A stretch of DNA of 21,654 bases from the NCBI GenBank assembly GCA_016748015.1, contig JAAOMT010000222.1, positions 933,966-955,619 on the forward strand. Direction: 5' to 3'. Below, piece after piece: positions 3,063 through 21,654 of this stretch. The position numbers and the translations under genes are program-made. This stretch comes from Geosiphon pyriformis (lineage: Eukaryota; Glomeromycota; Glomeromycetes; Archaeosporales; Geosiphonaceae). The notes under the pieces were generated by a model that had not been told where the DNA came from, did not search any database, and saw only the letters and a list, made by a program, of their open reading frames with translations. Every line of letters starts with the position of its first letter. The first letter of the stretch is position 1.

Positions 3063-3722
3063 TTGTTAAATTTTTACTTTTTAGCTTTTAATTATTTATT
3101 TAGTTATAATTAATTATATATATTAGCTATTAATATTATTAATTAGTTATCTTATTTTTAAATTAGTTATTAATGTAATTATTGATTTGATTAATGACTT
3201 AATTATTAACTTAGTCATTGATTTAATTATTCAATTATTAATGTAATTATTAATTTTTTTAAAAAATATATAAACAAGATTTTTCAAAGTTATAAAAAAG
3301 CATTTATACTAGAATTTATATTTAATTTAATATAATAATATTAACTTTTTATTTTTTTTATTTATTTTTTATTTTTTTTCTTAATTTGTATAATTATTAG
3401 TTTTTATAAAATATATTAAATATAATATTTACTAAAAAATATAATTAATATCTAATATTGAATTTTAAAAGTATTAATATAAATTAATATATTATTTTTT
3501 TTAATAATACAGACTATTTATCTATTTTTAAATTCTCTTGCTATTTTTTAAAAAGAATAATAAATAAAATATTTATGAAACTGATTTTTACATATTGAAT
3601 TTTTAATAATTTAATTTGTTTATTAAAAATTAAATTATCTTTTTAATTATTTTATTATTATACAATATTATATTTTTTTATTATTGTTAATGTATTATAT
3701 CTAATTGTAACAATATTATAAT
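3063..3722 (+). repeat. Left arm of a long imperfect inverted repeat
   Basis: This arm pairs with the reverse complement of 3811-4340. The best stretches are around 3560-3720, where ATATTTATGAAACT, TTTAATTATTTTATTATTATA and TATATCTAATT (reading inward) all have counterparts in the right arm. The 3470-3560 and 3060-3180 segments also match. The arms differ at many positions and by indels, so the palindrome is old. This arm is longer, partly because of the short tandem array at 3177-3256. The loop between the arms is about 88 bp. Confidence 0.7.
3177..3256. repeat. Short imperfect tandem array, about 24-bp unit
   Basis: Consecutive units begin with AATTATT at 3177 (24 bp), 3201 (24 bp), 3225 (20 bp) and 3245 (partial). 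The right arm of the surrounding inverted repeat has fewer units, so the array expanded or contracted after the palindrome formed. Confidence 0.55.
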
Positions 3723-7239: not shown

Positions 7240-7317
7240 CCATAATTGTCTTTATAGCCTTCGAAAAATGGAGTTAGCCCATTAACTACATAAAAGAATC
7301 ATAAGCTATAGCTATTT

Positions 7318-7440
7318 AATAAAGATATTTTGCATCTTATTTACCAATATTCTTGTAATTTTTTTCTTTCATAAATAATATTTCTGAAGTGCTTACAAAG
7401 TCAATGCTTCAATGTTCAATATCTTCTAATTGAACCTTTT
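7318..7440. repeat. Direct repeat, copy 1 (period 182 bp)
   Basis: This copy aligns base for base at a constant offset of 182 with 7500-7622. Shared blocks include GATATTTTG, ATCTTATTTACCAA and TGTTCAATATCTT. Substitutions are scattered and indels are few, so the duplication is not recent. Confidence 0.75.
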
Positions 7441-7499
7441 TGGTTATATCTTGAGTCTTGTAAGATTCAAACACTGATAGATTATTAGTAATGCCACTC

Positions 7500-7622
7500 A
7501 ATAAGGATATTTTGAATCTTATTTACCAACATTCTCAATATCTTTTTCTTCCATATATAATGGTTCTAAAGTACTTGCAGAGTCAATATTTTGATGTTCA
7601 ATATCTTTTAATTAAATCTTTT
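7500..7622. repeat. Direct repeat, copy 2 (period 182 bp)
   Basis: This is the second copy of the 123-bp unit at 7318-7440. Read on the minus strand it carries the better preserved version of the encoded motif (DIEHQNIDSAST, YMEEKDIENVGK). Confidence 0.75.
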
Positions 7623-7946
7623 CAGTCACATTTTAGGTTTCATATGGCTTATAATGATCTTGCTCGAATGGCCACTGTATGTTAATATCTTTGTCACATT
7701 CAACAAGCTTGTCTCGTTCATTAACAAGAGACTTATTAGTTGAAATAGAAATGGATTTATGTGATAATAATAAAGACGCATTGTAGTTATAAAAAATTTG
7801 TTGAGATGTTCTAGACACATTGCCAATGTGTTCAAATAGTCGTTCAGTTTGCATAGACTTCAAATTTTTGGTAACATGCAGGTGCTTTGAATGAATGCAT
7901 AAACCAAAAATAGGTATGAGGCGGGATTTTATTCTTATTAATGTTT

Positions 7947-9822: not shown

Positions 9823-10722
9823 TTACCGTTTATGATCTACAACAGGTTTTCGATTTTTGTATATTTCCTTTGGAGCAAACTGAGCCTGAGGATCACAACT
9901 TGCCGAGCTCAAATAAACGTTTGGTGCATATTTCTCCTCCTTTTTGATGACCTGTTCTTTGTCAAAATTAGCCAGCTGAATCTTGGCATTAAAATCATCA
10001 CCCGCTGCAGCTTTCTTGTACCAATATAATGCTCTTTTATCATCCTTTTTTGTACCCTGTGCCTCTCGAAAGCACTCGGCCAAATTAAATTGAGCACAGG
10101 GAAGACCAGCCCTGGCTGCTGTTTGATACCAATAGAAAGCTTTGACAAGATCTCGCTGAGTACCTAAACCTGATTTGTAAAAGCATCCGACGTTATTTTG
10201 GGCACCTAAGTGACCAGATTCAGCTGATCTAAGAAACCATTCTAATGATTTTTCCATATCAACAATAGTTCCTATTTCACGCTGATAACACCTTGCAAGC
10301 CGATATTGGGAATGTCCATTACCATCATTCGCAGACATCCGGTACAATTCGAAAGCTTTTTCTGGATTTTTTTCAACGCCAAATTCAGTCTCGAAACAGA
10401 TTCCAAGGAATAAATGGCCATACGAGTAACCACTATCAGAGGAAATTTCGTAAGCTTCAAATGCTTTTATCGGATCAAAACATTCTTTGATATACTGATG
10501 ACAGAATCCGAGGAGGCATCTAAACTGTCGAACGTACTGTGTTCTAATCGTTAGTTTTTCAATTAGATATTCCAGGGAAAGGTTGTGACTTTTAAGATTG
10601 TTTTGGATATCGAGCGCGATATCACAATAAATCTCTCCACGATCGATTGACTCAAGGAAACTTTTTGCGATCTGGTTGAATGAACCATTGATATAATTTT
10701 CTGGATTGAGATTTGAAATCAT
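9823..10722 (-). CDS. Sel1-repeat (SLR) protein, 299 aa, single exon
   Basis: This is an intact 299-aa frame made mostly of Sel1-like repeats, the alpha-helical TPR-like units of about 36 residues that act as protein-protein scaffolds. After an N-terminal helical region (1-65), five consecutive units can be read: about 66-97, 98-134, 135-170, 171-206 and 207-242. Each ends in the usual A-x-x-G-type turn, as in KAFYWYQTAARAG and RALYWYKKAAAGDD, with a G-x-G-T-type loop before it. The tail (243-299) is lysine-rich, has no repeat and is probably disordered. No signal peptide or membrane segment is visible, so it is probably cytosolic. There is no kinase domain, unlike many Sel1 proteins of Glomeromycotina. 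The start is the first Met of the open frame. The partner is unknown. A decayed relative lies on the opposite strand at 11408-12084. Confidence 0.9.
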   Translation of the reverse strand: MISNLNPENYINGSFNQIAKSFLESIDRGEIYCDIALDIQNNLKSHNLSLEYLIEKLTIRTQYVRQFRCLLGFCHQYIKECFDPIKAFEAYEISSDSGYSYGHLFLGICFETEFGVEKNPEKAFELYRMSANDGNGHSQYRLARCYQREIGTIVDMEKSLEWFLRSAESGHLGAQNNVGCFYKSGLGTQRDLVKAFYWYQTAARAGLPCAQFNLAECFREAQGTKKDDKRALYWYKKAAAGDDFNAKIQLANFDKEQVIKKEEKYAPNVYLSSASCDPQAQFAPKEIYKNRKPVVDHKR

Positions 10723-11407
10723 TTTGAAATTTGATGATTCTTTATTTTGAAATTTAATGGATTTTTTGATATTATTTAGATTTGATGAGATTTTTTGTTT
10801 TGGGTTTATTATTGAAATTAGATGGTTTTTTTGTTATTTTTTGAATCTAAAAAATCAATTATATTTATAGAAAACTTCTCATTGATTCCTAAATAGGCAT
10901 AAAACAGAGAAAAGGTGGTACATAATCCGGGTTCTGCCAATTTGTCAGTAATACCCCGCATTGTGTGCTGAAGAGACAATGAGAAGATGGTCTATTTTTG
11001 GTAAGTATTGTTTCTTTGTAACGTTGTAGATCTCCGGGTTAAATTATTAAGATTGTTGCGGCCCAATTTAGATTTTTAAGCACAGTTCTACAGGAGTAGA
11101 ATGATAATAATAACAACAGATATGTTTCAAGATTTTATTAATATTGTCTTTCAAAGTGACAGCTAATTTATTATTAAAAACTGAAAATTTTTTGATAAGC
11201 GGCTATATTTTTAAAATAATACTCTATCAATTAAAAAAATGTCAAATCCGGGAACTGTCTATTTTCAAAAGTTTTTTTTTTCATATTCTAACGTTGCAAG
11301 TCCTAGCCTTTTACGGAAATGTGATTTAAATTTAATTAATATAGAAATCCTTCTTTCCCTATACAAATTATTTGAAGTTCAATAATCTTTTGCTTTGTTT
11401 GAAAACC
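10723..11407. other. Shared upstream region between the Sel1 gene and the divergent Sel1 pseudogene
   Basis: This 5' region sits between two oppositely oriented Sel1 sequences and probably holds both promoters. It is less AT-rich around 10890-11100. A small perfect hairpin, TTCTAC-AGGA-GTAGAA, lies at 11086-11101. No coding sequence was recognised. A short ATG frame ending in a good donor (ATG at 10979, GTAAGT at 11001) could be a 5' mini-exon but has no identifiable partner exon. Confidence 0.4.
10861..10869 (-). promoter_or_regulatory. Candidate TATA box of the Sel1 gene
   Basis: The minus strand reads TATAAATAT about 140 bp upstream of the Sel1 start codon, in a locally less AT-rich promoter region. 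TATA-like words are frequent here, so this is only a position-based suggestion. Confidence 0.3.
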
Positions 11408-12084: not shown

Positions 12085-12809
12085 TCTAAATGTTGTGAAT
12101 AATCACGATTTTTCAAACATAAACTAGTGGATAGGTGCATGGAAACTTAAATTCTGGCAATAAAACCTATCAATATTATAAACCTAATACTTACACGCCT
12201 CATTATCATGTTGAAACTAACGTGACAATTTTTTTATTTGTGGAGCAATACATTCAAAAAATTGTTGTATTGATTTATTTTTTCTGATTTCAGGCTCTTT
12301 AGACTATTAAAGATTAGAATAAATTATTTAGTTTAATAAAATAATTTATTACTAAATGTGTCTGGTAAAAGACAGCCATATTATTAGTGCATCTTTAAGA
12401 AACTGCTACAAACAATCAAATTTAGGAATGGAAGAATAATGATATTGAAGTTCTGCAAAATCTATGAAAACATGGTTAAAGAGTATTATCAACAGTTTTG
12501 AAAGTTTTTAGATTTGAATACTTATAAAATGAAAATAAATGATTGTATTTTTTGTCTATTTTAGAATAAAAATATTGTTGAAAATTTTATGAAACATAAA
12601 AATGACATTAAAATTAATTTTTGAATTTAATTCAGTAAATACCTTTTTTCAAAAAAATTTATTATTGAAGAAGTTATAACTATTTTGATATGTAAGTAGT
12701 TATTAATTTCATGTACTTTCAGGTTGGAATATAAGTTCTTGCAAAATTTCGAATTCAATTCATAAAATTTTCATAGACAATATAAAAAAACTATTCCTTT
12801 GCAAGAAAA
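12085..12809. other. 3' flank of lipase-like copy A
   Basis: No gene was seen. From about 12200 rightwards this non-coding DNA aligns with 15980-16502 downstream of copy B, so it belongs to the duplicated segment. Matching blocks include GATTTCAGGCTCTT at 12288 and 16072, ACTATTAAAGATTAG at 12303 and 16109, and ACATTAAAATTAATTTT at 12604 and 16304. Confidence 0.6.
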
Positions 12810-14562
12810 TTAGCAATCACCCATTGTAACACCGAAATAAGGGCCGTAATGTTCTTGAATGCTGTTCTCGCCTGCGATCGATTGTCCAGAATTGCATTCC
12901 TAAATTTTTGTTTAATTGAATAAAATCAAAGCCTCAAGGTTTATTTGGACTTACAAATTTCGAAATGAAAATATTGCTAATAATAATATTATAAACAAAA
13001 ATTACTACCTTATTCTCCCCTGCTAAATCATCGCCAGGAATCCAAAACTTTTCCCGACGAAAATCGTTCATTCTTTCTAAATTGAAACTTTTTTGAGGTC
13101 TTCCACAATCCCATACAGCTTCTCCATCAGTTACAAACATTTCTTCATCTTCAGGACAATCACAATCTATTGGTCCAATCATTACTTCCCTTTCGTGATG
13201 TTGCATTATTGAGCGTCCATTTTCAATTGGAAGAAAATGTGGGACGTAATCATTTTGACGAGTAACTCTTGTAACCTTTACCAAGTCATTCATCATTTTA
13301 GCAAACATTATATTTCCCGTTCTTGGTTGACCAAAAGTATAAATGGAAATATCAAGTGTTCCTTTGAATTTGATTCCGAGTGGTCGAAGTCCAATAAGAT
13401 CCAATATTGTAAATGATAAACCTGCTATTGCTGCATATGCTATTAATTTTTAAAAAGAAAAAAAATCGAAATTACTGAAGAAAAAGGTTTCAAAAACGAA
13501 ACATTCTAAATTACTCACCACCGCCTACACCATGTCCACAGAAAGAAATTTTTGTGAATCCTTTTTTTTCGATTATATAATATATTCTTGATAGAATAGC
13601 ATCCATCATCATGGATACCTCATAAAACCATTCTTTATCAACTAGTACTAATGCGTTTGTCGTCATTCCTGCAACACTAAATTGTTCCAACTCACTTTTT
13701 CTATTATGCCAGTCGGTTTTGCTTAAAATAGGTGCTTTGAAATGTACAAAAATAGTTCCTAAGCTTATAGTTTCAAATACGTTACCTATTACAGTTGATT
13801 GAATATCGAAATAGTAAACAAGTTATTTGAATTGAGGAAAAAACTGAATTATCATAAGATACCAAAGATGTGTTTGCCATTTTCCACCAATCTTCCAACA
13901 TTATTAAATGAGGAAAACGGCTCACAATAGGCCATATTTGCAAATACAGCGTTCGCCTTTAATAGTAAAATCTCATTTCTTTGAGTGTTGTTAAATGATC
14001 GTTTTTTAGGATACACTTCATTACCATTGTCTGTTCTTTTATAGAAGGAATAATCATTACTAATTTGTGTCGTTTTTGATAAAAATAAGAATTGAGGTGA
14101 TATTAGAAGTTTCTTGATTGATTCTCGAATATTTTCAGATGGATAAAGTTTATTTTGTTTTGAATTTGGGAAATTCATCAAAATATTTCTGGAATTTAAA
14201 CCATCAAAATGTGAAGAAATGATAATTAAAATAAAGAATATGAATGTTAAAATTAATGAAAGGAGACATACTAGGTTTGATTTTATTGAAAATAATCGAA
14301 ATTTTTTAGTAGAATTTCTTTGTATTTTAGACATTGTTTCGCTATCTTAATTTTTGAAAAGAATTCTGCTCAATTCAATAAAAAAAGAAAACTGGATTTT
14401 TAGCTTGATATTTGAAAATGATTTGAGATCATCAGCACCGGAATTATTCTCACTAGAGAAGGATTTATAAATTAATTTATTGTGGGTGGTTTGGAACAGT
14501 TAGACAAATATTTCTCAATGATAGGCAAAAAGTTTTTTGATACTTGCAATTTGCTATGAAGA
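12200..14562. repeat. Tandem segmental duplication, copy A
   Basis: This is a direct duplicate of 15980-18305, covering a complete four-exon gene plus about 600 bp of 3' flank and 230 bp of 5' flank. The 5' edge is near the shared AGGCAAAAAGTTTTT block (14523), after which the similarity ends. The boundaries are estimated by eye and may be off by tens of bases. Confidence 0.8.
12810..14334 (-). CDS. Class-3 lipase-fold protein, copy A, 419 aa, four exons, nucleophile Ser replaced by Gly
   Basis: Exons are 14334-13863, 13785-13519, 13439-13009 and 12899-12810; introns are 77, 79 and 109 nt, all GT-AG. An in-frame stop lies five codons before the ATG. Residues 1-19 are basic and about 20-42 form one hydrophobic segment, either a signal anchor or an uncleaved signal, so the alpha/beta-hydrolase domain is probably lumenal or extracellular. 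The Lipase_3 landmarks appear in order: TIFVHFKAP (168-176, where enzymes have FRGT/S), FCGHGVGGAYAA (239-250, the nucleophile elbow, normally GHSxGG), YTFGQPRTGN (280-289), RQNDYVPHFLP (307-317, catalytic Asp at 310) and EHYGPYFGVTMGDC (406-419, catalytic His at 407). The codon at the serine position is GGT (Gly243). The fold is well supported. Hydrolase activity is doubtful, so this is probably a pseudoenzyme. Its substrate or ligand is unknown. The 3' neighbour copy B is the same gene duplicated. Confidence 0.88.
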
Positions 14563-14869
14563 TTAATACTTTAAAATAATAAGAATAATAAGAATAAATT
14601 AGCTTGAAAAAAACAGTGACAATAAGAAATACATTATAGCTTATACAGACAAAAATCTATTTTCAACTGAAAAAATTATTAATTATTAAGCAAGCATGTT
14701 TTAAAATAGTTTGGTTAGCAAATTACTGATGTAAATATTTTTTAAGTATTTGTTTTTACAATAATAAATAATTATTAAACTTCAATCTAATTCTAATACA
14801 AAAGCTAACTTGAATATTACTAAATAATCTACTGGATTTTTTATTATATTTATGAGATCAACATTAAAA
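14563..14869. other. AT-rich spacer upstream of copy A
   Basis: Nothing recognisable was found here. It lies outside the duplicated unit and runs into the second Gypsy fragment. Confidence 0.4.
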
Positions 14870-15660
14870 AAATAAGTTGATCGAAATATATACACTCTTT
14901 CTTAACTAGCAATCTAGTAATAAAACCAATTTTCAACAAAACAAAATCAATTAATTATTAGTATAATTGCTTTAAATATCATATAACAATAAATTTGAAA
15001 ACTATTAAGCACTTTTCAGATTTTTGGGTAAAAAACAATACCTCCCAAAGTATAATGAACAAGAAAAGAACATTTGTAAAAGCAATTAAATTTGCCAATC
15101 AATTTTAAAGAGTTATTAAGTTTGAAAAAAATACTTTGAAAAACAAAGACAACTTAAAGACATGGCGAAATATTATTGGCTGACGTTAGAAAAAGATATA
15201 ACAAAATACATTAAGTTTATCTAAAAACTAACTTATTAGTTTATATAAACTATTGAAAGAATACATCAAAAATTACAATATACTCAATATTAAAAAGCAT
15301 ATAAAGCTGTAAATTAAATAATTATTTGAAATTAAAATAATAAAATATATTAATCAATAATTTCTATAAAAATTATTAATTAATATAATTAAGTACTAAA
15401 AATATTAATGCGAAAATGAATTTTGCATTTAATATATATACAAATTGTTATTATTTATTAATACCACATATTACGTGTCTAATAGTTATATTGGAATTTA
15501 GATCTTATGTATTTTGAATAATTTCATTTATTTATATTGTTATGATTCAATCTTTTGGTTTTTAGTTTATTAATTATTCAATTATATTTGGTGACATATA
15601 TTAGCCATCCTATTTTTAAATTAGTTATTGATGTAATTATTGACAAACATCTAACAACTG
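14870..15660 (+). mobile_element. Second decayed Ty3/Gypsy fragment (pre-integrase and integrase zinc-binding region)
   Basis: The nucleotide sequence aligns with about 2560-3180 of the first Gypsy remnant. Shared blocks include ATAACAATAAA, GTAAAAAACAATA/ATAAAAAACAATA, AAATATTATTGG and TTTTTAAATTAGTTATTGATG-like words near 15615 and 3155. The translation is better preserved here: FLGKKQYLPKYNEQEKNICK near 15020-15080, and MAKYYWLTLEKDITKYIK at 15162-15215, which matches the 'YYWPxMxxDIxxYV' core preceding the CxxC of Gypsy integrases. It has stops and frameshifts and no catalytic core could be read. The fragment sits between the two lipase-like genes. Confidence 0.7.
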
Positions 15661-16502
15661 TTATGAAATTTTAAGAAGTGCTGATTGAAACATAGAATTA
15701 TGACAATTTTTGTTATTTTTTTTTGATATTATAAACTATCTTTTAACTTTCAGATTTCTTAAAAAAATTAGTACTATAATTTTTATACGACAGATTACAT
15801 TAATTGAATTATTTACTTATATAATTTGCTTCTTTGATTAAATTTTTTTTGATTATTTTCATTGTCTTACACTATTATTTTCTTTGCTATTTATTAATCT
15901 GTTATCCTAACCTGTAACAATATATAGCTTTTTTATTTATTTAGGTAAACAGTTTAAAAAAAATTGAGAATTTTAAGACATTTTATTATGAGAATTAATA
16001 TGACATTTTTTTATTTTTGGAGAAATACCTTCGAAAAATTCAAAAAATTGTTTCATTTATTTATTTTCCTGATTTCAGGCTCTTGAAAAAACTAACCAAG
16101 TAAAATTAAACTATTAAAGATTAGTAATAAATTATTTAGTTTAGAAATATAAATTAATAATATTTTTGTCTGTTGCATATTTAATAAACTTACAACAACA
16201 ATCAAATTTGGAATGAGAGAATAATAGTTAATAACTCATAAAATTGAGTTTCTACAAAATTTAAAAAACATGAGTAGAGAAGATTATAAACAATTTTTAA
16301 ATAACATTAAAATTAATTTTTAATTTAATTCATTCATAATACTACAAATGCAATAAAAGCCAGAATTAGATATATTTGTTGAAAAAATATATTACAAACC
16401 AATTTATAAATATTTTGATATTTAAATTTTCATAAAGGATCTAAAAAAACAAGTTTCTCAGGCAGAAAGAAACTTTTCTTTTACAAAAAATTGGAATATT
16501 TA
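15661..16502. other. Spacer and 3' flank of lipase-like copy B
   Basis: About 15661-15980 shows nothing recognisable. From about 15980 the DNA aligns with the 3' flank of copy A starting near 12200 and belongs to the duplicated unit. Confidence 0.5.
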
Positions 16503-18305
16503 TCATTTAAATACACTGCAATCACCCATTGTAATACCAAAATAAGGACCAAAATGTTCTTGAATGCTGTTTTCGTTTGCGATTGATTGTCCAGAATTAC
16601 ATTCCTAAATTTTTGTTTAATTGAATAAAATCAAATTTCAAGGTTTATTTGAACTCAGTAATTTCGAAATGAAAAAAATGTCAATCCTATTATAAACAAG
16701 AATTACCTTATTCTCCCCTGCTAAATCATCTCCAGGAATCCAAAACTTTTCACGGCGAAAATGGTTCACTCTGAATAGAAGTCTTTCTAAGTTCAAACTT
16801 TTTGGGGATCTTCCACAATCCCATAAAGCTTCTCCGTCATTTAAAACCATTCCTTCATCTTCAGGACAATTACAATCTATTGGTCCAATCATTACTTCCC
16901 TTTCATGATGTTGCATTATTGAGCGTCCATTTTCAATTGGAAGAAAATGTGGGACGTAATCATTTTGACGAGTAACTCTTGTAACCTTTACTAATTCATT
17001 CATCATTCTGGCAAACATTATATTTCCAGTTCTTGGTTGACCAAAAGTATAAATGGAAATATCAAGTGACTTTTTGAGTTTGTCGATTTGAGGTGGATGA
17101 GATCCAATAAGATCCAATACAGCAAATGATAAACCCGCTATTGCTGCATACGCTATTAATTTTTTTAAAAAAAATCAAATGACTGAAGAAAAAGTTTTCA
17201 AAAGCAAAAAAAATTTAATTTACTTACAACCACCCACACCATGTCCACAAAAAGTAATTTTTGTGTATCCATCGTCATTTATTATAGTATATATTTTTAA
17301 TAGCACAGCATTCATCATAATTGATACCTCATCAAACCATTCTTTATCAACCAGTACCAATTTGTTTGTCGACATTCCTGAAACACTAAATGGCACCAAC
17401 TCACTTTTTCTATACAACCAGTCGGTTTTGCTTAAAATAGGTGCCTTGAAATGTATAACTATAGTTTCTAAGCTTGGTTGTTCGAATACAGCACCTGTTA
17501 CAGTCGATTGAATATGGGGATAGTAAAAAAGTTATTTGAATTGAGAGGTCGTCAAACTTTCAAGATTGAAAAAATTGAATTATCATAAAATACCAAAGAT
17601 GTATTTGCCATTTTTCACTAAGCTCCCAACAGTATTAATTAAGGAATATGGCTCACAATAGGCCATATTTGCATATAAAGCGTTCGTACTTAATAATGCA
17701 ATTTCATTTCTTTGAGTGTTGTTAAATGCTCGTTTTTTAGGGTACACTACATTACCATTATCTGTTCTTTTAAAGAAGAAATAATCATTATCAATTTGTG
17801 ATGTTGTTGATAAATATGAGAACTGAGGTGATGTTAAAAGTTTCTTGATTGATTCTGGATTTTTTTCAGGTGGATAATGTTTATTTCGTTTTAAATTTAG
17901 GAAAATCCTTAAAATATTACTGAATTTTAATCCATTCACATGGAAAGAAATTGTAATTAGAATAAAGATTACGAATATTAAAATAAATAAAATGGAATAG
18001 AAATGATTTGAATTTATCGAAAAATATCGAAATTTTTTAGTAGAGTTTCTTTGAGTTCTATACATTTTCTCTATATCTTTATTTTGAAAAAAGTTTGCTA
18101 AATAACTCCACGTAATTAAATAAAAGAAAAATGATTTTTTAGCTCGATATTTGAAGGTGATTAGATTATCAACACAAGGATTATCCTCACAAGAAAAAGG
18201 AAATTATATTTTAATTTTGTTGTAGACGGTTTGGAATAATTTAAACAAACATTTCTCAATTATAGGCAAAAAGTTTTTGTAGCTTGTAATTTGTTATATC
18301 AATAT
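15980..18305. repeat. Tandem segmental duplication, copy B
   Basis: This is a direct duplicate of 12200-14562, about 3.8 kb away. Non-coding flanks are clearly diverged but alignable on both sides, for example AGGCAAAAAGTTTTT near 18264 on the 5' side. Exon 3 contains a stretch much more similar than the rest (see findings). Confidence 0.8.
16503..18065 (-). CDS. Class-3 lipase-fold protein, copy B, 428 aa, four exons, nucleophile Ser replaced by Gly
   Basis: Exons are 18065-17594, 17494-17228, 17152-16707 and 16604-16503; introns are 99, 75 and 102 nt, all GT-AG. Exon lengths 1 and 2 and every intron phase equal those of copy A. The N-terminus is basic, followed by one hydrophobic segment at about 20-42 (signal anchor or signal peptide). 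Landmarks: TIVIHFKAP in exon 2, FCGHGVGGSYAAIAG across the exon 2/3 junction (Gly243 where the catalytic Ser is expected), YTFGQPRTGN, RQNDYVPHFLP with the likely Asp at 311, and EHFGPYFGITMGDC with the likely His at 412. Compared with copy A it has one extra residue near 264-276, a four-residue insertion near the exon 3 end (LLFR-V-N versus M-N), and four extra C-terminal residues (SVFK) because the stop codon is displaced. There are no frameshifts or internal stops, so the copy appears to be maintained. Confidence 0.88.
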
Positions 18306-20780: not shown

Positions 20781-20908
20781 AGATCACCTGTCGATCACAT
20801 ATTACGTGCAGTATAAAATCAGCGCTGATTGGATTTTATGAAATCCTTTTCCCCTTAAAGACTGCAGATTGAAATATCAATATTTAAAGCTTTCTATATC
20901 TTTTATTA
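20781..20908 (+). promoter_or_regulatory. Probable core promoter and 5' UTR of the BTB gene
   Basis: This is a sharply less AT-rich block directly before the start codon. It holds TATAAAA at 20812-20818, a 14-bp perfect palindrome AATCAGCGCTGATT at 20817-20830, and an inverted CCAAT (GATTGG) at 20827-20832. The TATA word is about 90 bp before the ATG. The palindrome overlapping it could be a binding site for a dimeric factor, which is inference. Confidence 0.45.
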
Positions 20909-21654
20909 ATGGCACCTCAGCAATTCTTTCACGCTTTATCCAATGATTTCGGGAGTCTATTTAACACTCAGAAGTTCTCTGATGTTAGAATTATAGTTGG
21001 CGAAGCGCCCAATATTAGAACTTTTCATGCTCATTCACAAATTTTAGCAGCAAGATCACCATATTTTGCTGTAGCACTCTCTGGCAATTGGATTAAAAGG
21101 GAAAATAATACTATTATCTTCAATAAACCTAATATTTCACCTAATATTTTTGAAATAATTCTCAGGTAAGAGTTTCATTTGCTTTAAAGAATTTTAGCTA
21201 ACATTAAATCATATGTTTCATTTTCCTGGTACAGATATATTTATAATGGCGAGATTTCTCTTGATAAGCATGCAGTACCTACCATTTTAGAATTGCTTGT
21301 CACCGCTGACGAGCTTATTCTAGAAAAAATTATTGATCTCCTTGAAGATTATTTGATTGAACACCATGCAAAAGAGCTAGAAGAAAATTTTGCCACTTTG
21401 CAAAAAACTTCATTTATGCATGATTCTTTCAAAAAGTTACAAAATTTTTGCACCGAAATAATTGTTAATAATTCAGCTATAGTCTTCAACTCCCAAGATT
21501 TCAACTCCCTTAGTGAAAATGCTCTTTCCTCAATTTTAACTCGGGATGACCTAAATATAGAAGAATCTAAGATATGGGAAAAGATTGTGGAATGGGGAGT
21601 TGCTAAATTGGATAAAAATATTCAGATGAAAGAAGTTCTTACCTGGACAGATGA
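20909..21654 (+). CDS. BTB/POZ-BACK domain protein, 5' part (225 codons in the window), cut by the window edge
   Basis: Exon 1 is 20909-21165 and exon 2 runs from 21235 to the window end. The 69-nt GT-AG intron splits an Arg codon (AG|A) that joins EIILR to YIYNGE. An in-frame stop at 20885 makes this ATG the first possible start. The BTB fold spans about residues 16-125, with FSDV (23-26), HAHSQILAARSPYF (40-53), a NW-type step after the first helices, and FEIILRYIYNGEI (81-93). The BACK region follows, with LLEDYLIEHH, FCTEIIVNNSAIVFNS, LSSILTRDDLNIEESKIWEK and WGVAKL, ending in TWTD at the edge. This layout and motif set match the BTB-BACK proteins of Glomeromycotina, most of which continue into a TLDc domain. 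Whether this one does lies outside the window. BTB-BACK proteins typically dimerise and recruit Cullin-3 ubiquitin ligase. The target is unknown. Confidence 0.92.

Follow-up and report, generated by a model that had tools for sequence, protein, structure and literature searches.

Two neighbouring genes, here called A and B, lie on the minus strand of a 21,654-nucleotide stretch of the Geosiphon pyriformis genome (the window; coordinates given below are counted from its first base). Both code for proteins of the class-3 lipase fold in which glycine occupies the place of the nucleophilic serine, and the question that they raise is what such a protein is kept for once its nucleophile is gone. The answer that we favour, with a confidence barely above even, is that A and B are members of a family of about 225 Lipase_3-fold pseudolipases, acting by binding a ligand in a retained pocket and probably anchored outside the cell. 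Hydrolase folds devoid of the serine are already known, as in neuroligins, while a serine-less lipase expansion on this scale is named in none of the titles listed from the open literature.

Spliced models joined by GT-AG junctions present A and B as intact four-exon genes with products of 419 and 428 amino acids, respectively, free, as the initial annotation had stated, of stop codons and frameshifts. The introns of the two genes are identical at 218 of 253 positions. Between 866 kb and 952 kb of their contig (C358), seven or more related minus-strand genes, A and B included, form a run, and in the six fully modelled members of this run (A, B, and four neighbours) exons 2 to 4 are all open. 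The features of the two genes are as follows:

13863..14334, minus strand: gene A exon 1, with the predicted cytoplasmic N-terminus, hydrophobic anchor, and ANMAYC motif (spliced model and hydrophobicity scan)
14218..14274, minus strand: gene A hydrophobic segment, amino acids 21-39, predicted signal anchor (mean hydrophobicity 3.34, 19 residues)
13519..13785, minus strand: gene A exon 2, with the oxyanion region HFKAP and the nucleophile elbow (spliced model)
13529..13531, minus strand: gene A nucleophile codon GGT (Gly for Ser), within GHGVGG at 13520-13537 (position from the gene B alignment)
13009..13439, minus strand: gene A exon 3, with the GQPR, NDYVPH, and HHERE motifs (spliced model)
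13249..13251, minus strand: gene A catalytic-Asp codon, in NDYVPH (position from the gene B alignment)
12810..12899, minus strand: gene A exon 4, with EHYGPYFG (His codon 12849-12851, assigned by motif) and the last conserved Cys
17594..18065, minus strand: gene B exon 1, with the hydrophobic anchor (17937-17993; hydrophobicity 3.04) and the ANMAYC motif (spliced model)
17228..17494, minus strand: gene B exon 2, with HFKAP and the nucleophile elbow (spliced model)
17238..17240, minus strand: gene B nucleophile codon GGT (Gly for Ser), within GHGVGG at 17229-17246 (model and alignment)
16707..17152, minus strand: gene B exon 3, with GQPR, NDYVPH (Asp codon 16959-16961), and HHERE (model and alignment)
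16503..16604, minus strand: gene B exon 4, with EHFGPYFG (His codon 16554-16556, assigned by motif; weak alignment stretch) and the last conserved Cys
12252..14537, no strand: copy A of the tandem duplication, flanks included (repeat families D1-D3, D6, D8, D10, D13, and D16, spacing about 3.7-3.8 kb)
16038..18278, no strand: copy B of the tandem duplication, flanks included (same repeat families as copy A)

Both products match the Pfam family Lipase_3 (PF01764), A with an E-value of 2.6e-15 (57 bits) and B with 1.5e-15 (57.8 bits), the cut-off being 22. The Pfam scan of the two proteins returned nothing else apart from DUF676 below the cut-off for A; a cholinesterase-type domain was not found, nor was a second Pfam domain or, in the spliced models, a long C-terminal extension. 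In a phmmer alignment of B with the Rhizomucor miehei lipase (1tgl), GHG stands opposite GHS of the GHSLGG elbow, and NDYVPHF opposite RDIVPHL, which, on the assignment of catalytic residues that we assume for 1tgl, holds the catalytic Asp. The elbow with GGT in place of the serine codon, described in the initial annotation, is thereby borne out by models and alignment alike: both proteins read FCGHGVGG, followed by a codon split by the exon junction, G/CA (Ala) in A and T/CG (Ser) in B, also as described. The same annotation regarded the Asp and His regions as lipase-like. For Asp this holds in the alignment with 1tgl, while EH[YF]GPYFG comes to lie opposite DHLSYFG only in a second, non-significant stretch (score -1.5; 5tgl, 4tgl), so that the His of A and B is assigned by its motif and by conservation in the family. 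Moreover, FKAP is found in both proteins where the oxyanion motif FRGS is expected, with Pro at the Ser/Thr position. The active site is therefore altered at two places; compared with an active Lipase_3 enzyme, A and B lack the nucleophile Ser and the oxyanion Ser/Thr, and retain Asp and, by motif, His. The Ser directly following GHGVGG in B was considered as a substitute nucleophile and rejected, as A and six other aligned members of the clade have Ala there.

The change is not a private quirk of the tandem pair. In the genome, which comprises 124.7 Mb in 406 contigs, a DNA pattern for GHGxGG matches 246 sites, against 9 for the reversed-pattern control; by the next residue, 107 of them have Ile (control 0) and 54 Leu or Phe (control 9). 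The corresponding GHSxGG pattern gives 14 + 36 = 50 sites (controls 1 + 2), and the Lipase_3 profile at least 163 exon matches, with 150 of 750 candidates scored. Loci were retrieved for the first 100 GHG sites, all 50 GHS sites, five C358 neighbours, and one further region. Added later were five sites with other residues and 15 GHG sites on contigs not represented among the first 100, the latter hand-picked among the Ile and Leu/Phe sites, with none from the Val sites past the first 100. Among the first 100 GHG sites 99 match the family, and 93 do so at 150 bits or more and with stop-free exons, which led us to reject the view of these genes as pseudogenes; all except one of the 93 reach the His exon. 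Twelve of the 15 extra GHG sites also score at least 150 bits, as do 35 of the 50 GHS sites, 40 of which match the family, and the five odd sites, picked by hand (Ala in three, Arg, and Asp at the nucleophile), score from 127 to 223 bits. Eleven loci with weak first scores (1 GHG, 10 GHS) were excluded by hand before the final exon models and are counted as misses, and for each paralogue the exon model kept was the one scoring highest against a profile derived from these very loci, a procedure biased towards conserved motifs. In total, 105 of 115 GHG sites lie in a family-scoring domain, implying that about 225 of the 246 would be Gly genes if the unread sites are alike. The motif GHG[VIL]GG[ASV]YA matched at 46 places in prokaryote contigs and at 14 in viral ones, and tblastn identified no relative among them.

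The genome-wide recurrence also bears on the suspicion that splicing, RNA editing, the gene model, or the assembly conceals a serine, which is scarcely credible: the Gly codon lies inside an exon, 10 bases before a GT donor present at the same post-elbow place in 97 of 100 GHG loci, and the same codon state is met at 246 sites on many contigs. Two side observations were made in this survey. An identical 17-mer, GGCCATTTGTTTGGGGG, accounts for nine of the 100 GHxxGG pattern matches listed, on several contigs, and probably belongs to a mobile element; copies of GGCCATTTGTTTGGGGG inflate the counts of GHxxGG sites having neither Ser nor Gly. A Gly-type paralogue, L168 (G000:C280:54860-56076), contains a long in-frame serine run between the Asp and HxxxExW motifs.

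The family was aligned in 146 rows, 12 of which (9 Gly and 3 Ser: fragments, poorly spliced or partly unread) were excluded from the tree and from the counts over 97 Gly and 37 Ser members. The 97 Gly members, with a median pairwise identity of 31%, have Asp without exception and His in 91 cases (five of the others have Asn and one Pro); the H and E of the HxxxExW motif are present in 94 and 97 of them, and five Cys columns in 94, 95, 97, 95, and 95. Among the Ser members, Asp is found in 36 of 37 and His in 32 of the 36 with a letter at that column. Over all 146 rows the respective values are 103 of 105 and 96 of 103 (with a letter) for Gly, and 38 of 39 and 32 of 36 for Ser. The oxyanion Thr/Ser follows another distribution, being present in 7 of 88 Gly members, in none of the 23 non-canonical Ser members, and in all seven canonical Ser lipases. 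Its loss is wider than that of the nucleophile, because it extends to the non-canonical Ser members. Of the 30 Ser members that have a readable oxyanion column, 7 possess the full canonical set including this residue, and lipase counts in such genomes thus overstate lipolytic capacity.

The retention of Asp and His may also mean that the Gly proteins are non-hydrolytic enzymes, in which the His-Asp dyad would serve as a general base activating water, a peroxide, or a carbon acid with no covalent acyl-enzyme (perhydrolase-, aldolase-, or lyase-like). We regard this as unlikely, yet it is the rival most deserving a test. Apart from the invariant Asp and the His of 91 among 97 members, it draws on the constraint upon the active-centre segments, which together are the most constrained (see below), and on the appearance among the PDB matches of the family profile of a mono- and diacylglycerol lipase structure, 5ch8, presumably the Penicillium camembertii enzyme. 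Laboratory mutants resemble A and B in lacking the nucleophile with His and Asp left in place. According to the available part of PMC5357956, the P. camembertii lipase Ser145Ala is no hydrolase and shows some residual perhydrolase activity, for which peroxide activation by His was proposed, and CalB Ser105Ala largely keeps perhydrolase activity with hydrolysis gone; formation of an aldol by CalB Ser105Ala is described in the accessible portion of PMC8910291. However, these mutants are man-made and changed in Ser alone, whereas the present substitution is natural, affects many genes, and is accompanied by the absence of the oxyanion Thr/Ser in 81 of 88 Gly members (Ala-Pro in A and B); moreover, six of the 97 lack His. 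Quite unlikely, in our estimate, is an extension of this idea to the whole set, with hundreds of secreted Ser-free Lipase_3 proteins still being enzymes whose His-Asp dyad and remodelled oxyanion region would act non-covalently on lipids of plant or fungal origin. Peroxide or carbon-acid activation would be examples of such chemistry, and repeated gain and loss of Ser would then represent a switch to or from hydrolysis.

Hydrolysis by means of another nucleophile is very unlikely. Candidates would be, for example, the Cys preceding the elbow, the Tyr five residues after Gly, and the carboxylate at the place where VH is changed to VD, VN, or VE (position 217 of B). The Tyr occurs in 87 of the 97 Gly members. 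Position 217 is D, N, or E in 94 of them and His in all seven canonical lipases; overall, His is found there in 17 of 35 Ser members and in 1 of 97 Gly members. Nevertheless, Tyr and Asp are common in the non-canonical Ser members too (25 and 12 of 28, respectively), and the Cys is confined, among the matches listed, to the 19-row clade of A and B, some members of which do not have it. Co-evolution of the carboxylate with the loss of Ser was rejected as an explanation, since the link between position 217 and Ser is inseparable from shared descent (in most cases no more than one of 5 pairs was informative).

Selection was assessed from the ratio of nonsynonymous to synonymous substitution rates (dN/dS, Nei-Gojobori). 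Between A and B it amounts to 0.55 over the whole gene, with 0.43 for the domain and 0.76 for exon 1. For 21 further recent paralogue pairs it ranges from 0.35 to 1.12 with a median of 0.66, and for 28 pairs of the window's clade the medians under four mutation models are 0.61-0.81. In four disjoint pairs of that clade (chosen by hand, like the 21), the elbow, Asp, and His segments, 58 codons altogether, carry 33.5 synonymous to 18.5 nonsynonymous substitutions, and the remainder of the gene 83.6 to 291.4. The odds ratio is 6.5, with a Fisher p of 1.2e-9 that is descriptive, the segment borders having been drawn after the sliding-window table. By segment the ratios are 14:4 for the elbow, 8:4 for Asp, and 11.5:10.5 for His. 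About one fifth of mutations are synonymous, and the remainder of the gene is therefore near the neutral ratio. The dead active centre is thus its most guarded part, a poor fit to simple decay. A dN/dS near 1, named at the outset as evidence against a retained role, is approached by part of the whole-gene values, but the active-centre segments together are strongly constrained.

Decay in a broader sense would be a relaxed birth-and-death family, in which surplus secreted lipases drift after the loss of Ser, conservation is purely structural, and no specific function exists. This explanation, which we consider unlikely, accounts for the high dN/dS and the near-neutral substitutions in the rest of the gene, for repeated switching between Ser and Gly (see below), for Ala, Arg, and Asp at the five picked odd sites, and for the occurrence of fragments, 7 of the 100 sampled GHG loci scoring below 150 bits or not at all. 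It accords less well with the 93 high-scoring, stop-free loci, with an Asp that is invariant at 31% median identity, with the concentration of constraint in the elbow, Asp, and His segments, and with the open exons 2 to 4 of the six modelled C358 members.

To trace the history of the nucleophile, a quick maximum-likelihood tree was computed for 134 members with the nucleophile column excluded; 55 of its 130 inner branches are weakly supported. Ser and Gly members are intermixed: the best tree requires no fewer than 17 changes, of which 5 or more are forced by starred branches. The initial annotation had asked whether Gly at the elbow defines one clade; constraining the tree to a single Gly clade lowers the log-likelihood by 634 and is rejected in the approximately unbiased test (p-AU 1.6e-29), although long branches could inflate the rejection. 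A and B are placed among 19 rows that form an all-Gly clade (support 99), itself part of a larger, Gly-rich group comprising 84 rows. Gly being common to the whole 19-row clade, the loss of Ser is older than the A/B duplication, in agreement with the original proposal. Six Ser members are nested in the 84-row group. The seven canonical Ser codons are all AGY, one transition from GGY, and switching between the two residues is therefore easy. TCN codons, two base changes from Gly, are used in three of the six nested Ser members. Among individual loci, L118 and L120 (Ser encoded by TCA) are closely related to the Gly locus L013, with two base changes between them; a switch between TCA and Gly perhaps proceeded via Ala (GCN), which is also seen in the family.

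As to the location of the proteins, A and B have a 19-residue hydrophobic stretch following a basic N-terminus (means 3.34 and 3.04). Of 99 Gly loci scanned, 42 allowed the exon-1 Cys motif to be placed, and 32 of these, A and B included, have a hydrophobic stretch of this kind; in the other 57 the motif was not found, perhaps owing to an intron or to the definition of the motif, and these are not counted as lacking it. The hydrophobic stretch together with the conserved cysteines suggests a protein that is either secreted or held by a type II anchor, and the notion of an intact, membrane-anchored pseudolipase family, put forward in the initial annotation, is in this sense supported, the anchor being predicted from the hydrophobic stretch.

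From these data we infer the following mode of action. A and B would enter the secretory pathway, with the lipase domain outside and the N-terminal hydrophobic segment probably serving as the anchor. Ester hydrolysis would be lost, the nucleophile being Gly and the oxyanion Thr/Ser being replaced, while the acyl pocket with Asp and His would be kept and would bind a ligand, most likely an acyl lipid. The fast-changing remainder of the protein could tune binding or recognition at the surface of a lipid-dependent symbiont.

Several points weigh against this interpretation. An invariant Asp and a near-invariant His exceed the needs of binding alone, unless they are structural, and their conservation is equal in Ser and Gly members, which structure alone could explain. 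The guarded segments are the structural core too, so that constraint alone is no proof of the use of the pocket, and the His segment is the least constrained of the three. The high whole-gene dN/dS (median 0.66, with one pair at 1.12) suits relaxed constraint as well. Furthermore, 57 of the 99 Gly loci yielded no exon-1 motif by which an anchor could be placed, and some of the nested Ser members may be active.

Fungal class-3 lipases (PF01764), such as the R. miehei enzyme 1tgl, the Thermomyces lipase, and feruloyl esterase A, give a significant profile match with the family. The elbow, GQPR, the catalytic Asp, and HxxxExW align, and the His and the C-terminal Cys do so only in a weak stretch. 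The present proteins differ from them in Gly for Ser, in Pro (A and B) for the oxyanion Ser/Thr, in the predicted N-terminal anchor, and in a conserved intron right after the elbow. The CxC of the family is a further difference, being absent from the seven canonical lipases of the same genome. The plant immune proteins EDS1 and PAD4, related to Lipase_3, are matched in the PDB by the family profile, with E-values of about 1e-6 to 1e-3. Their lipase-like domain serves signalling, and in EDS1, PAD4, and SAG101 it is accompanied by a C-terminal helical EP domain; in contrast, A and B have no second Pfam domain, and their predicted anchor and conserved Cys are consistent with an extracytoplasmic protein. 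A further parallel is provided by neuroligins and cholinesterase-like adhesion proteins, which share with A and B a hydrolase fold without Ser; extracellular anchoring is predicted here. Neuroligins are, according to the available parts of PMC12931606 and PMC8526735, membrane proteins that act by binding, an example of an anchored, Ser-less hydrolase fold put to that use. They are of the cholinesterase type, type I in the membrane, and encoded by a handful of genes, unlike the hundreds of Lipase_3 genes found here.

The genome contains one ketoacyl-synthase locus (PF00109; two exons on one contig), and all 14 control genomes were matched by this profile; PF17951 (fatty acid synthase I) has no match in the genome and none in the controls either, and is hence uninformative. 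The single locus, together with the Sel1 and BTB genes of the window, fits an arbuscular mycorrhizal fungus that has no fatty acid synthase I, a missing match being no proof of absence, and the fungus is probably unable to make fatty acids itself. If it is an arbuscular mycorrhizal fungus, it is dependent on host lipids, and a surface-anchored, rapidly diversifying set of about 225 proteins with a lipid pocket and without the usual ester hydrolysis would then be strongly placed as a candidate for capturing lipids or for recognition at the contact with the host. In 2019 the fungal fatty acid transporter was, as stated in the accessible part of PMC6920215, unidentified and the transport mechanism unknown; the same source reports lipase and lipid-recognition genes of R. 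irregularis to be overexpressed in planta. One secreted alpha-beta hydrolase is reported as induced in the available section of PMC5293756. For Gigaspora rosea, in planta expression of two putative triglyceride lipases is reported in that of PMC4771724. A Ser-less lipase family is not named among the titles listed from the open literature on lipases of these fungi, nor is it mentioned in the accessible portions of PMC8778642 and PMC11426481. The family also constitutes a natural experiment on what preserves the catalytic Asp-His pair once the nucleophile is gone.

Other elements of the window are less directly connected with A and B. A 52-nucleotide AT-rich repeat unit forms a short array at 3143-3262 and occurs again 12 kb away, at 15601-15652, between A and B. 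A direct repeat of 142 nucleotides with 182-nucleotide spacing, 78% identical, is located at 7311-7634. On the minus strand, 9823-10833 is an open frame of 336 amino acids with Sel1 repeats (Pfam E 5.6e-36), and on the plus strand 20888-21169 is an exon with a BTB/POZ domain (Pfam E 3.4e-12). Finally, 1773-1985 on the plus strand contains a short reverse-transcriptase fragment (RVT_1, E 2.1e-6; 28.1 bits, below the curated cut-off of 29.6), by its appearance a remnant of a retrotransposon.

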